From contig JAGFIV010000027.1 in the NCBI GenBank assembly GCA_024103275.1, positions 1 to 64,000 of the forward strand: a DNA stretch of 64,000 nucleotides. Direction: 5' to 3'. The stretch comes from Flavobacteriales bacterium (GTDB taxonomy: Bacteria; Bacteroidota; Bacteroidia; Flavobacteriales_F; PHOS-HE28). The notes under the pieces were generated by a model. The model was not told the DNA's origin and did no database searches. It was given only the letters and a program-made list of their open reading frames with translations. Both the position numbers and the translations under genes were made by a program. Of this stretch, positions 48,225-53,055 are shown in pieces. The stretch's first letter is position 1. Each line of letters begins with the position of its first letter.

Positions 48225-48935
48225 ATGCTGCACACCACCCGGGCCGTGGCGCTCCGCACCTTCAGGCACACCGACAACACGTTGGTGATGAAGGCCTATA
48301 CGGAAGCATTCGGCGCCCGGTCATACCTGGTGCGCACCGGCAAGCGTGGCGGCATGCGCCAGGCACCGGTGCAGCCCTTGGACCGCTTGGAGCTGGTGGT
48401 GACCGAATCGGGGGACCGCGAGATGCACACCGTCCGGGAAATGCGGGTCTTCCTGCCGTACACCAACCTGGCCGCCGACCCCGTGCGGGGGCTGGTGCTG
48501 CTTTTCGCGCAGGAGGTGTTCTACCGCACCCTCCGGGCCGGTGCCCCGGACCCGCCGTTGTTCCACTTCGTCCTGGAGACCTTGGAGACCATCGATTCCG
48601 GCAGGGACCCCGGCGCGGTGCCCGTGCTGCTGCTGGTGCGCCTGGCCCACCATTTGGGCATCTTGCCGCAGCCCCCCCCGGATGCCGAAGGGCATTTCGA
48701 CCTGCGCGAGGGCAGCTTCACCAAGGGCAGCCCGGTCCATGCCTTCTGCATGGACCCGGAAAGCTCGGCCCTCTTCGCGCGCCTGCTCCACGCCGAGCTG
48801 CAGGGCGCCCCCCTGCCCGTGCCGATGATGCGGCAGAAGGTCCTGCTGGACCACCTGCTCATCTATTTCCGCCTGCATGTGGAGGGCTTTGGCGAACTGC
48901 GCTCGCCCGGGGTGCTGCACGATGTGCTCCGTTGA
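48225..48935 (+). CDS. recO: DNA repair protein RecO
   Basis: RecO loads RecA onto SSB-coated DNA in the RecFOR pathway. The 236-aa protein has the N-terminal OB fold (TTRAVALRTFRHTDNTLVMKAYT) and the helical C-terminal half. No zinc-binding cysteines are visible, as in many Bacteroidota RecO. It lies 19 nt after porZ and overlaps the next short frame, consistent with one transcript. Confidence 0.9.
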   Translation: MLHTTRAVALRTFRHTDNTLVMKAYTEAFGARSYLVRTGKRGGMRQAPVQPLDRLELVVTESGDREMHTVREMRVFLPYTNLAADPVRGLVLLFAQEVFYRTLRAGAPDPPLFHFVLETLETIDSGRDPGAVPVLLLVRLAHHLGILPQPPPDAEGHFDLREGSFTKGSPVHAFCMDPESSALFARLLHAELQGAPLPVPMMRQKVLLDHLLIYFRLHVEGFGELRSPGVLHDVLR

Positions 48936-48979
48936 GCGGCAGCTGCTGCGGGCTCGTGGACGCGCCCGGGAGTCCCGTC

Positions 48980-48987
48980 TATTTTCG
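48980..48987 (+). promoter_or_regulatory. -7-like element for ptrB
   Basis: TATTTTCG matches TAnnTTCG and ends 22 nt before ATG 49010. Confidence 0.4.
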
Positions 48988-49009
48988 CCGATCCCGCCGC
49001 ACGTCCGTG

Positions 49010-51109
49010 ATGAAATCAACCACCCTGCCACCGCCCCCCGCAACAATCCGGAAAAACCACGTCACCGTGGTGCACGGGCGGAAACGGAATGATCCGTTCG
49101 CCTGGCTCAGGGTTTCCGAGGAACAACGGCGCTCACCCGTTCCCGACGGGCACACCCGGCTGGTAACGGACCACCTCCGCCTGGAGAACGCCTATACGGA
49201 GGCCGTGCTGGCACCCGTGGCCGGGCTGCGCGAAGCGCTTTACCGGGAAATGAAGGGGCGCATCAAGCAGAGCGACCTCAGCGTGCCCTACCGCGAAAAC
49301 GGCTACTGGTACCGCTTCCGCTTTGACGAGGGGGCCGAATATCCCGTGCACATGCGGGCCCGCGTGGCCGAAGACCGCGACCGGGTGCCGGAGGTGTTCA
49401 CGGACTTCCTCGACGAGAACGCCATGTCGGCCGGGCACGACTATTTCGACCTGGCCGACTTCGAGATTGCGCCCGGCAACCGCCTGATGGCGTATAGCTT
49501 GGATACCACGGGCCGCAGGTGCTATGAGATCCGCTTCCGCGACCCCGACACCGGGCAGGAACTGCCGGAGGTGATCACCCATGCCGCCGACGGCGGGGCC
49601 TTTGCCGATGACCGCACCTTCTTCTATGTGCGCAAGGACCGCAGCCTGCGCAACGCCCGCGTGTACCGGCACATCATCGGCACCGACCCATCGGCCGACG
49701 TGCTGGTGTACCACGAGCGGAACCGCGCATTCAGCTGCGAGGTTTACCGCAGCCGGTCCGACCGGTATGTGGTCATTTCCACCGAGAGCACGCTGTCCAG
49801 CGAGCACCGCCTGCTGCCCGTGGACGACCCCATGGGGGAGTTCCGGGTGCTTTTCCCGCGCGGACGCCGGCACGAGCTGAGCATCATGCACGTCCCGGGC
49901 AAGTTCTATCTGCTCACCAACTGGAAGGCCCGGAACTTCCGTTTGATGGAATGCCCGGAAGACTCCACGGAAAAGACAAGCTGGAAGGAAGTGGTGCCCC
50001 ATCGCGGGAACGTGCTGCTGGAGGATGTCACCGTGTTCCGCGACCACTTGGTGCTCACCGAACGGGAGGAGGGGCTGGTGCACCTGCGGGTGATCCAGAT
50101 CGGCACCGGCAAGGAGCACCAGATCAAGTTCCACGACCCGGCGTATGTGGCCTTCGCAGGCACCAACCCCGAGTGGGACACCACCCGGTTCCGCTACGGA
50201 TACACCTCGCTCACCACCCCGTCCAGCGTGTTTGAACACGACCTGGTTTCCGGCCGTGACCGCTTGCTGAAACAACAGGACGTGTTGGGCGGCTTTGATC
50301 CGGCCCAGTATGTCAGCGAGCGCATCTGGGCCAGGGCGGCCGACGGCACCCGGGTGCCGATCAGCCTGGTGCACCGGCGCGATCTGGCCATGGACGGGCG
50401 TGCGCCGCTGCTGCTGTACGGCTATGGGGCTTATGGGATCAATGTGGAGCCGGTGTTCAGCAGCGCACGCCTGAGCTTGCTGGACCGGGGCTTCGTGTAT
50501 GCCATCGCCCATGTCCGCGGCGGTGAGGAGCTGGGCCGGGCCTGGTACGAGGATGGGCGGATGGAGCACAAGCCGAACACGTTCACCGACTTCATTGCGT
50601 GTGCCGAGCAGCTGGTGGCCGACGGCCACGCGGACCACAGGCGGCTCTATTGCATGGGCGGCAGCGCCGGGGGCCTGTTGGTGGGGGCGGTGATGAACAT
50701 GCGGCCCGACCTGTGGGACGGCGTGGTGGCCGAAGTGCCCTTCGTGGACGTGGTGAACACCATGCTGGACGACAGCCTGCCGCTCACTACCGGTGAGTAT
50801 GACGAGTGGGGCGACCCGCGGCAGGCCGATGCTTTCATGCGGATGCTTTCCTATTCGCCCTATGACAACGTCCGCGACGCCTCCTATCCGGCCTTGCTGG
50901 CCACCACGGGCTTCCACGACAGCCAGGTGCAGTATTGGGAACCGGCCAAATGGGTGGCACGCCTGCGCGAGCATCAGCGGGGGAAGGCACCCTTGCTGCT
51001 GTGGACCAACATGGAAGCGGGGCATGGCGGTGCCACGGGCCGGTTTGAGCAGCTCGCCGAGATCGCGCGCATATACGCCTTCCTGCTCCTGCGGGCCGGC
51101 CTCGCCTAG
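49010..51109 (+). CDS. ptrB: Oligopeptidase B (S9A prolyl oligopeptidase family)
   Basis: PtrB cleaves short peptides after basic residues. The ATG at 49010 gives 699 aa. An N-terminal beta-propeller domain is followed by the hydrolase domain with Ser552 (GGSAGG), Asp637 (HDSQV) and His672 (GHGG), the catalytic triad. There is no signal peptide, as usual for the cytosolic form. It is transcribed after recO with its own possible -7 box. Confidence 0.92.
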   Translation: MKSTTLPPPPATIRKNHVTVVHGRKRNDPFAWLRVSEEQRRSPVPDGHTRLVTDHLRLENAYTEAVLAPVAGLREALYREMKGRIKQSDLSVPYRENGYWYRFRFDEGAEYPVHMRARVAEDRDRVPEVFTDFLDENAMSAGHDYFDLADFEIAPGNRLMAYSLDTTGRRCYEIRFRDPDTGQELPEVITHAADGGAFADDRTFFYVRKDRSLRNARVYRHIIGTDPSADVLVYHERNRAFSCEVYRSRSDRYVVISTESTLSSEHRLLPVDDPMGEFRVLFPRGRRHELSIMHVPGKFYLLTNWKARNFRLMECPEDSTEKTSWKEVVPHRGNVLLEDVTVFRDHLVLTEREEGLVHLRVIQIGTGKEHQIKFHDPAYVAFAGTNPEWDTTRFRYGYTSLTTPSSVFEHDLVSGRDRLLKQQDVLGGFDPAQYVSERIWARAADGTRVPISLVHRRDLAMDGRAPLLLYGYGAYGINVEPVFSSARLSLLDRGFVYAIAHVRGGEELGRAWYEDGRMEHKPNTFTDFIACAEQLVADGHADHRRLYCMGGSAGGLLVGAVMNMRPDLWDGVVAEVPFVDVVNTMLDDSLPLTTGEYDEWGDPRQADAFMRMLSYSPYDNVRDASYPALLATTGFHDSQVQYWEPAKWVARLREHQRGKAPLLLWTNMEAGHGGATGRFEQLAEIARIYAFLLLRAGLA

Positions 51110-51123
51110 GTGTCCGGGCCGGA

Positions 51124-51351
51124 TCAGGGCAACCGCTCCGCCATCACGATGTCCTCCGGCCGCACCGCGATCGCGTCGCGGGGCTGGCTGGCATCGCGCC
51201 GTGCCCGTTCATACTCGCCGATGGAGGCGAAATGCAGCAGGCGGCCCGCTTGGGTGCCGGCTTCCCAAACCACGCCGAAGACCTCACGCCCACTGCGCAG
51301 CCGGAAGCGGCAATGTGCATGCATGAAGTCGCGGATATCGGGCAGGCCCAT
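51124..51351 (-). CDS. Conserved small protein (75 aa), possibly regulated by a palindrome
   Basis: This short soluble protein (MGLPDIRDFMHAHCRFRLRS) is rich in beta structure and Arg and has a compact SH3/Sm-like look, with DAIAVRPEDIVMAERL at the end. I do not recognise a named family. Its start abuts a perfect palindrome (51352-51368) and a -7 box (51368-51375), which points to a self-contained, regulated unit. Confidence 0.7.
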   Translation of the reverse strand: MGLPDIRDFMHAHCRFRLRSGREVFGVVWEAGTQAGRLLHFASIGEYERARRDASQPRDAIAVRPEDIVMAERLP

Positions 51352-51368
51352 GGTGCAACAGTTGCACC
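51352..51368. promoter_or_regulatory. Perfect 17-bp palindrome abutting the 75-aa gene
   Basis: GGTGCAAC-A-GTTGCACC is a perfect inverted repeat that fills the whole stretch between the -7 box and the ATG. It would span the predicted transcription start, a position suited to a repressor operator. Confidence 0.6.
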
Positions 51369-51375
51369 GAAAATA
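51368..51375 (-). promoter_or_regulatory. -7 element of the 75-aa gene
   Basis: TATTTTCG on the minus strand matches TAnnTTCG and touches the palindrome. Confidence 0.5.
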
Positions 51376-51462
51376 ATTGATGCCGGCCTGCCCTGCCCGA
51401 TGAAAAGATCAACAAGGGATCGGTTTCTGTTGATAAGTGCGCAAGGTCCGCCCCAGTGCCGT

Positions 51463-52944
51463 TCACCCCTTTTCCACGCCCACCCTGATCTTCTTGCCCA
51501 CGGTGAGGTGGCGGAAATTCATCCCTTGGTTCAGGTGCTTGAGGTCCTCCACGCTCACGCCCGGGTAGCTCTTGGCGATCTCCCACAAGGTGTCGCCCGG
51601 CTGGATGGTGTGGTAGATGTATCCGTTGTCCCCTTCCGTGGCAGGTGCGGCGTTGGCCTCGTCCTTCCCCGCCGTTTCGGCTGCGACGGAATGCCCGGTG
51701 TCCTGGCGATGCAGCACCAGGCACTGGCCCACCCGGATGTGGTCGCCCTTCAGGTGGTTCCAGCGGCGCAGGTCGTGCAGGCTTACCCGGTGCCGTTTGG
51801 CGATCAGGCCCAACGATTCGCCGCTGCGCACCACATGCGTATAGGTTTTCGTGGCCGTGCCGCCGGCCTGCACCCTGGCGGTGGCCGGCGCCGGCGCGCT
51901 CAGGTCCGGCCGATAGGACCGCGCGATGGTGTCCTCCTGTTGGATGAAGGCGGCCACATTCGATTCGGGGATGTACACCACGGCCGGCCAATCCATCACG
52001 GGCACCACCCCGGCCTTGAACACGGGGTTCAGGTCCCGGATCTCCTGTTGGTCGGCGCCGATCAGTGCGGCCAGCTTGTCCAGCTCCAACGGGTAGCGCA
52101 CGTGGATGGTGTCCACCTCATAGGCGCAATAGTTGGGGATGATCGGATAGATGTTGTGGTCCGCCGCGTGGTGGAAGATGTAGTTCACGGCGATGAAGGC
52201 GGGCACGTATCCGCGCGTCTCCCTCGGCAGGAAATCGTAGACCTTCCAGTAGTCCAAGGCGCCACCGGCGCGGCGGATGGCCTTGTTGACGTTGCCCGGC
52301 CCGCAATTGTAGGCGGCCAGGGCCAGCTCCCAATCACCGAACACCTCGTACAGGTCCTTCAGGTAACGGCAGGCGGCATCGGTGCTCTTGTAAATGTCGC
52401 AGCGCTCATCCACGTAACTGTCCACCCGCAGGCCATAGAGCTTGCCCGTGCCGATGATGAACTGCCACAGGCCCACGGCCGCCGCCCTTGAGCGGGCCCC
52501 GGGGTAAAGCGCGCTCTCCACCACGGCCAGGTATTTCAGTTCCTGGGGCAGGCCGTAGCGGTCCAGTGCCTGCTCGAAGGTGGGGAAATACAGGTGGGCC
52601 AGCCCCAGCATGCGTGCTGTCTGTTCCTGTTTCCGCTGGGCGTACATATCGATGTAGGACCGCACCGGCGCATTGTAGGTGAGCTTGAAGGGGCTGCGTT
52701 CATCCAGCTCCAGGAGCCGCTCCCGGTACACGCTGTCGGGCCAGGAAGGGACCTCCCCGGGCGCGAAGCCGTGAACGTTCAGCACGCCCACATCGGCGGT
52801 GAACGGGTCGTTCTTCAACCACGGCAGCCGGCTGAGCTCGTTGATGCGTTCCAGCACCGGGTCGTCCTGCAGGAGCGAATCCTGTGCAGGGGAGGTGCAA
52901 GGGATGGCAAGCGATAGCAGGAGCAGATACCGGATGATGTGCAT
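51463..52944 (-). CDS. LysM-containing membrane-bound lytic transglycosylase (MltD-like)
   Basis: ATG 52944 gives 493 aa with a signal peptide (IIRYLLLLSLAIPCTSPAQ). The transglycosylase domain has the catalytic Glu143 in VVESALYPGA and AVGLWQF downstream, as in family 1 lytic transglycosylases. Two LysM modules follow at about residues 345-390 and 424-470 (HVVRSGESL, HTIQPGDTL), which bind peptidoglycan. It cuts glycan strands and is probably involved in cell-wall turnover or division. It lies in the envelope run, 111 nt after gatA. Confidence 0.93.
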   Translation of the reverse strand: MHIIRYLLLLSLAIPCTSPAQDSLLQDDPVLERINELSRLPWLKNDPFTADVGVLNVHGFAPGEVPSWPDSVYRERLLELDERSPFKLTYNAPVRSYIDMYAQRKQEQTARMLGLAHLYFPTFEQALDRYGLPQELKYLAVVESALYPGARSRAAAVGLWQFIIGTGKLYGLRVDSYVDERCDIYKSTDAACRYLKDLYEVFGDWELALAAYNCGPGNVNKAIRRAGGALDYWKVYDFLPRETRGYVPAFIAVNYIFHHAADHNIYPIIPNYCAYEVDTIHVRYPLELDKLAALIGADQQEIRDLNPVFKAGVVPVMDWPAVVYIPESNVAAFIQQEDTIARSYRPDLSAPAPATARVQAGGTATKTYTHVVRSGESLGLIAKRHRVSLHDLRRWNHLKGDHIRVGQCLVLHRQDTGHSVAAETAGKDEANAAPATEGDNGYIYHTIQPGDTLWEIAKSYPGVSVEDLKHLNQGMNFRHLTVGKKIRVGVEKG

Positions 52945-53055
52945 GGAAGGGCGAATATCTTGTTTCTTACGCAGCGGCCGCCCCGATGTTGCCCCAAGTA
53001 CCAACGATCGCGGGTTCATGGCCTCGGTGGAAGGGCCATGAAGGTAAGGGCCGGC

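Follow-up and report, generated by a model that had tools for sequence, protein, structure and literature searches.

A DnaA double-box regulon is known from Escherichia coli, for which a ChIP-seq study reports a preference of DnaA for paired boxes with 2 or 3 bp between them (PMC11317965). The residues P423 and T435 are described as base contacts of the E. coli protein in two articles (PMC7561715, PMC5043019), and the latter also mentions an alanine at position 435 in some Epsilon- and Deltaproteobacteria. For Bacteroidetes, a replication origin (oriC) lying far from dnaA has been reported (PMC4755523). Among the matches listed in the open-licence literature on DnaA and oriC in Bacteroidota, no title dealt with DnaA as a transcription factor or with a regulon of the kind described below. 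The mechanism, DnaA acting as a transcription factor, is already known; the new parts would be a changed box, altered protein contacts, and the targets. At the locus analysed here, comparison of orthologous upstream regions indicated that the signal is probably a DnaA double box of a Bacteroidia type with A or C at position 6, which is probably activating, and not the palindrome that had been highlighted in an earlier note on this DNA.

The window, i.e., the whole stretch of 64,000 nucleotides that was analysed, contains a gene for a 75-aa protein preceded by an intergenic region of 111 bp, which is bounded by a lytic transglycosylase gene. The features of the locus and related sites elsewhere are compiled in Table 1. 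One end of the palindrome shares one base with the -7-like box, and the other end abuts the start codon. The box is of the TAnnTTTG type, the consensus of this kind of -7 element, and a TAnnTT match occupies a constant position in each of the 41 genus upstream regions that were scored. Orthologues of the 75-aa gene were detected in 41 of 45 genomes of the genus (own genome included) and in 7/53 genomes of other families in a first search, and a profile search retrieved them from 54 of 396 genomes of the class. The perfect palindrome does separate a -7 box from the ATG of a small conserved gene, as had been noted, and the promoter looks regulated.

Table 1. Positions of features at the 75-aa gene locus and of related box sites elsewhere.
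Feature	Position	Strand	Remarks
Prolyl oligopeptidase (S9)	48932..51109	+	Convergent neighbour, 14 bp away
75-aa gene, uncharacterised family	51124..51351	-	Conserved across genus; no Pfam/NCBIfam match
17-bp palindrome GGTGCAAC-A-GTTGCACC	51352..51368		Single exact genome copy; poorly conserved
-7 promoter box TATTTTCG (TAnnTTTG type)	51368..51375	-	TAnnTT 29-31 bp after box 2 in genus orthologues
DnaA-like box 2 TGTTGATCT	51406..51414	-	6/8 informative positions; 30 bp upstream of -7 box
DnaA-like box 1 TTATCAACA	51428..51436	-	8/8 informative positions; spacer to box 2, 13 bp
Lytic transglycosylase (SLT) with LysM domains	51463..53019	-	Upstream neighbour, same strand
Box pair before receiver-type protein	L244 (G000:C78:17298-17323), L226, L222, L225, L228		
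rpiB-upstream box cluster and AT-rich stretch	L075 (G010 3,003.7-3,004.1 kb), L129 (G004:C2 1,055.8-1,056.2 kb), L176, L178, L184		

The palindrome is real and neatly placed, and it is poorly conserved. Perfect inverted repeats with arms of at least 8 and a centre of 0-3 nt were counted over the whole window, and 8 were found, compared to a mean of 7.45 (4-11) in 20 first-order random sequences. This is the number expected by chance, and therefore the sequence itself is unsurprising and only its placement is not. The own genome does not contain a second exact copy. With up to 3 mismatches it was matched at 44 places, versus 70 for a reversed control pattern, showing that there is no family of palindrome-like sites in this genome; both matches with 2 mismatches lie within ORFs. 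Upstream of the 41 genus orthologues the full palindrome with its 8-bp arms is present only once, namely in the own genome. Arms of at least 5 bp abutting the ATG were found in eight of the 41 (own genome included), all of which belong to the ten closest orthologues. In four further loci (L017, L019, L023, L030), 5-bp repeats of unrelated sequence occur at other places within the 24 nt preceding the ATG, and in the same 24 nt of the remaining genus orthologues no repeat of at least 5 bp was found.

In the earlier note, the palindrome was read as an operator that serves to block transcription, with a local repressor that could even be the product of the 75-aa gene. The perfect symmetry, the exact placement, and the retention of arms of at least 5 bp in 8 of the 10 closest orthologues are in favour of this proposal, but the chance number in the window, the scarcity among the 41 orthologues and the single copy in the genome argue against it. 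In addition, the 75-aa protein was modelled as a small barrel with no helix-turn-helix, and its predicted structure thus gives no support to autoregulation. A role as operator is therefore highly doubtful, and the palindrome amounts to no more than a minor peculiarity of this lineage at the start site. Alternatively, the palindrome could form an RNA hairpin in the leader that controls translation. Inspection of the sequence by eye shows that 7 bp with a 3-nt loop could be formed beside the AUG. However, the usual distance between a -7 box and the transcription start would place the start inside the palindrome, and therefore only one arm would be transcribed; this and the missing conservation among the orthologues make a hairpin extremely improbable.

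A comparison of the orthologue upstream regions revealed, in place of the palindrome, two 9-mers in inverted orientation (TTATNAACA...TGTTNATAA), which are located some 50-130 bp ahead of the ATG. In the window it is represented by two head-to-head 9-mers 38-68 bp upstream of the palindrome, with an imperfect box 2. Pairs of TTWTN(A/C)ACA boxes were scored within 150 bp upstream of the genes (16 = perfect), whereby spacers of 2-4 and 12-14 were allowed, and direct pairs at spacers of 2-3 only. The own pair scored 14 of 16 (p = 0.010 against shuffles). A score of at least 15 was reached by 19/41 genus orthologues and by 18/30 orthologues from nine other families, counts that are not independent given that the orthologues are related (L031 and L032, for instance, do not differ over a stretch of 110 bp). 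The remaining 22 and 12 orthologues, respectively, scored lower. Significance against shuffles (p ≤ 0.05) was found for 28/41 genus and 19/30 other-family upstream regions, and 13 of the 41 genus regions were not significant. Among control genes of at least 200 aa within the fetched stretches only 1 of 981 had a pair scoring at least 15 (0/782 in the genus, 1/199 in other families). The genus set comprised 41 of 42 loci from 40 genomes, because G005 has two loci, and L025, the upstream region of which is cut by the contig start, was dropped. The weak profile matches in G210 and G223, the second matches in G054 and G179, and a weak second match in G018 were left out, and a doubtful homologue (L187 in G208) was kept among the 30 other-family orthologues.

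In the 22 genus rows that scored at least 14 the spacer was 13 bp in 21 cases and 14 bp in one. The weaker pairs of L009 and L012 have a spacer of 2, which is one helical turn less, and outside of the genus the spacers are 2-3 or 12-14. Position 6 of TTWTNxACA showed a preference: upstream of the 75-aa gene the genus (41 regions) had A34 C5 G0 T0 (expected 0.5/0.6/0.3/0.1), and the other families (30 regions) had A34 C3 G0 T0 (expected 2.4/1.0/0.8/1.6), resulting in A68 C8 G0 T0 for all 71 regions. As a separate observation, in three loci of the family f11 (L162, L163, L189) the pair is enclosed by a near-perfect inverted repeat. Its arms are about 16-18 bp long and a T-rich stretch comes after it, so that it might at the same time be a terminator of the upstream gene.

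The distance between the pair and the promoter was found to be fixed. Box 2 and the TAnnTT -7 box are 30 bp apart in 29 of the 41 genus orthologues, and 29 and 31 bp apart in one each. For the ten closest orthologues, an unrestricted scan takes a farther 9-mer, and hence box 2 was sought at -80 to -45 or the pair coordinates were used; the restricted scan gave a gap of 29-30 bp for eight of them, and the pair coordinates of L009 and L012 gave 30 bp. In contrast, the distance from the -7 box to the ATG varies from 10 to 63 nt in the genus orthologues. The position of the pair is thus constant relative to the promoter and variable relative to the gene, and the pair should therefore act on transcription. 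Since the promoter boxes lie downstream of it, activation is more probable than a block.

The occurrence of the pair was also analysed at other genes. In 29 gyrB upstream regions from 20 genera (without L285), 11 had a score of at least 15 and 15 had a p value of at most 0.05. Pairs of at least 15 occur in the families f5, f11, f27, f29, f33, and f37 and in the genus; some of the gyrB pairs are direct with an 11-bp period, and the spacers include 2-3. Scores of 13 or less were obtained for 12 of the 29 regions, among them four genus genomes with TGTTGGGAA as box 2. Position 6 in the gyrB set was A27 G1. When 11 genus genomes were searched with the strict pattern AACAN{12,14}TGTTSAWAA, each of them contained 1-4 matches, and the reversed control yielded none in 11/11. 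For other families, of which 16 AT-richer genomes were searched, the summed matches (111) were not above the control (103). The genus matches lie before gyrB in seven genomes (including G020, by coordinates), and the identity of the own gyrB was verified by the Pfam domains DNA_gyraseB and Toprim. In five genus genomes matches are located 12-54 bp before a gene for a receiver-type protein of 159-172 aa, and both of two tested proteins contain the Pfam domain Response_reg. The remaining genus matches are mostly inside ORFs, and one match in G010 is flanked by a MarR-like gene and a 305-aa gene. The exact 9-mer TTATCMACA was near background genome-wide (22 versus 18 for the reversed control in G010); single boxes thus say little, and it is the pairs that are informative.

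Although DnaA is often autoregulated, autoregulation by the pair was rejected, because none of 21 dnaA upstream regions (without L211, which was unreadable) had a pair scoring at least 15, and only two had a p value of at most 0.05. The own dnaA upstream region has an imperfect direct pair with a score of 14. Seven genus loci (L190-L192, L194, L199, L200, L204) share a T-run with (T)TCACTT and have a CATATTTGCC-like or similar -7 box about 100 bp before dnaA.

Clustered 9-mers were also found before rpiB. In a 196-kb stretch of G010 the GC-skew minimum is at the intergenic region before rpiB, which contains such a cluster, and dnaA is distant from the skew minimum. Some genomes of the family f37 have runs of TAG/TAA trinucleotides before rpiB, which resemble DnaA-trios. 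The region before rpiB is likely to be oriC, as judged from these sequence features. The skew in the fetched stretches is weak and noisy, and the rpiB region coincides with the minimum in G010 alone: in G004 the skew is lowest around 950-955 kb, and the rpiB region (1,056 kb) is at a later dip; in G024 it is lowest near 2,607 kb, and the positions of rpiB and of the 75-aa gene are 2,531 kb and 2,582 kb, respectively. At least one box is present upstream of rpiB in 22 of 30 genomes and none in the other eight. Position 6 was A5 C4 G0 T0 in 12 genus regions (expected 0.5/0.4/0.4/0.2) and A34 C7 G0 T4 in 18 others (expected 6.7/2.2/1.5/4.7). Therefore, A and C are well over expectation, G never occurs, and T is at expectation, and the preference for A or C is common to the predicted oriC and the promoters of the 75-aa gene. 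The 75-aa gene and rpiB are on one contig in 14 of 30 genomes (G004, G010, G013, G022, G024, G026, G041, G058, G080, G116, G144, G170, G193, G251), at distances of 3-77 kb; the own draft genome has them on two separate contigs.

The proximity of the 75-aa locus to the GC-skew minimum of the fetched stretches in G010 and G024 (within about 80 kb) had suggested that its intergenic region might be the chromosomal replication origin itself. This was rejected, because there is no skew switch at the locus in the other families, where the right-half skew exceeded the left-half skew in only 4 of 19 loci (four of the 19 had less than 4 kb on the left), and because the region before rpiB, which lies at the G010 skew minimum 76 kb from the locus, is the better candidate. 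That the locus is the origin has hardly any probability left.

Taken together, the pair is conserved, its distance to the -7 box is fixed, it is rare at other genes, it recurs at gyrB, and it has the same letter preference as the boxes before rpiB, and for these reasons DnaA is regarded as the probable binder. DnaA would bind boxes 1 and 2 as a dimer in phase with the promoter, would be positioned at roughly -45 and -67, and would activate transcription of the 75-aa gene. This gene and gyrB, and in some species the gene of the receiver-domain protein, would then follow the DnaA/replication cycle. We infer all three elements, i.e., the identity of the binder, activation rather than repression, and the physiological link to replication, from sequence comparisons.

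The DnaA protein of the clade was inspected as well. Domain III was found in 22 of 24 genomes and domain IV in 14 of 17, both including the own genome; domain IV was masked in G067. DnaA was not found with the two domain models in G055 and G072, the drafts of which are rated 98-99% complete. In domain IV (L190-L210) the sequence GGKDHATVLHA, which follows SLA(N/T/S)IG, is present in 20 of 22 loci. According to an alignment by eye, 20/22 loci have an alanine at the positions equivalent to E. coli P423 and T435, and the replacement of these base-contacting residues could explain the altered box at position 6, although an alanine at 435 is not confined to this class.

Alternatively, the pair might be bound by a transcription factor other than DnaA, e.g., a regulator common to gyrB and the 75-aa gene, and the site might merely look like a DnaA box. 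The missing strong pairs at dnaA (0/21) would fit, as would G072, in which strong pairs precede the 75-aa gene as well as gyrB despite the failure to detect DnaA, and the E. coli consensus TTWTNCACA (PMC7561715) does not have an A at position 6. However, the preference at position 6 (A and C, not G and T) is identical before rpiB and at the promoters, box 1 is exactly TTATCCACA in L031, L032, and L038, and the spacers of 2 bp and 13 bp (2+9+2) as well as the 11-bp period of direct gyrB pairs agree with DnaA arrays. A different factor thus seems rather unlikely, and DnaA is retained as the probable binder.

The 75-aa protein has a conserved core, C-(R/K)-F-x-(L/M)-x-G-x-x-(V/I)-(F/Y)-G-x-x-W-E. 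The window protein matched none of the Pfam and NCBIfam models, and two relatives had weak Pfam matches below the cut-off. AlphaFold2 predicted a small barrel (pLDDT 83.7, pTM 0.67). The top Foldseek matches of the model were Edc3, Lsm, and Hfq proteins, with a best E value of 0.013 and none at or below 0.001. A VIA comparison gave a Z score of 5.8 for both YaeO and a cyanobacterial Hfq, and the two best rows were small lipoprotein barrels (6.2 and 6.0), values for which it has to be considered that a Z score below 8 may mean merely a common arrangement. A search for solved relatives gave a profile match to YaeO alone, with a non-significant E value of 0.61. The model thus weakly resembles Sm/Hfq folds.

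It is tempting to speculate that the DnaA of Bacteroidia, with Ala at positions 423 and 435, reads TTWTN(A/C)ACA and runs a small replication-coupled regulon, which would comprise gyrB and an unstudied gene for an Sm/Hfq-like protein that in several lineages lies near the origin. This extended proposal is tentative and in its entirety not probable. If it were true, supercoiling and a nucleic-acid-binding factor would follow the initiation cycle, in a group that is said to be devoid of classical RNA chaperones (stated for Bacteroides in PMC11697453). The analysis offers a testable DnaA regulon for Bacteroidota, proposes the boxes that would be read by DnaA in this class, and points to an oriC before rpiB. 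It would tie gyrase expression to the start of replication, and it singles out a conserved uncharacterised 75-aa protein that probably belongs to the replication programme.

The comparison with known systems reveals both similarities and differences. Sm/Hfq-like proteins and YaeO (Rof) may be similar in fold to the model of the 75-aa protein, for which no significant sequence match was obtained. As in Prevotella intermedia, where oriC is reported to be far from dnaA (PMC4755523), dnaA is distant from the skew minimum; the difference is that the locus described here is a promoter, and the oriC candidate lies before rpiB. Compared with the E. coli consensus TTWTNCACA, the own box 1 differs at position 6, and the own box 2 is poorer. 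A further comparable system is the E. coli double-box regulon (PMC11317965). As in E. coli, pairs of 9-mers close to TTATCCACA lie upstream of genes that are partly replication-related, the proposed regulon is compact, and several families have spacers of 2-3 bp. In contrast to E. coli, most of the boxes have an A instead of a C at position 6, the pairs are mostly head-to-head with a spacer of 13 bp in the genus, and the targets found are gyrB, the 75-aa gene, and the gene of the receiver-type protein.
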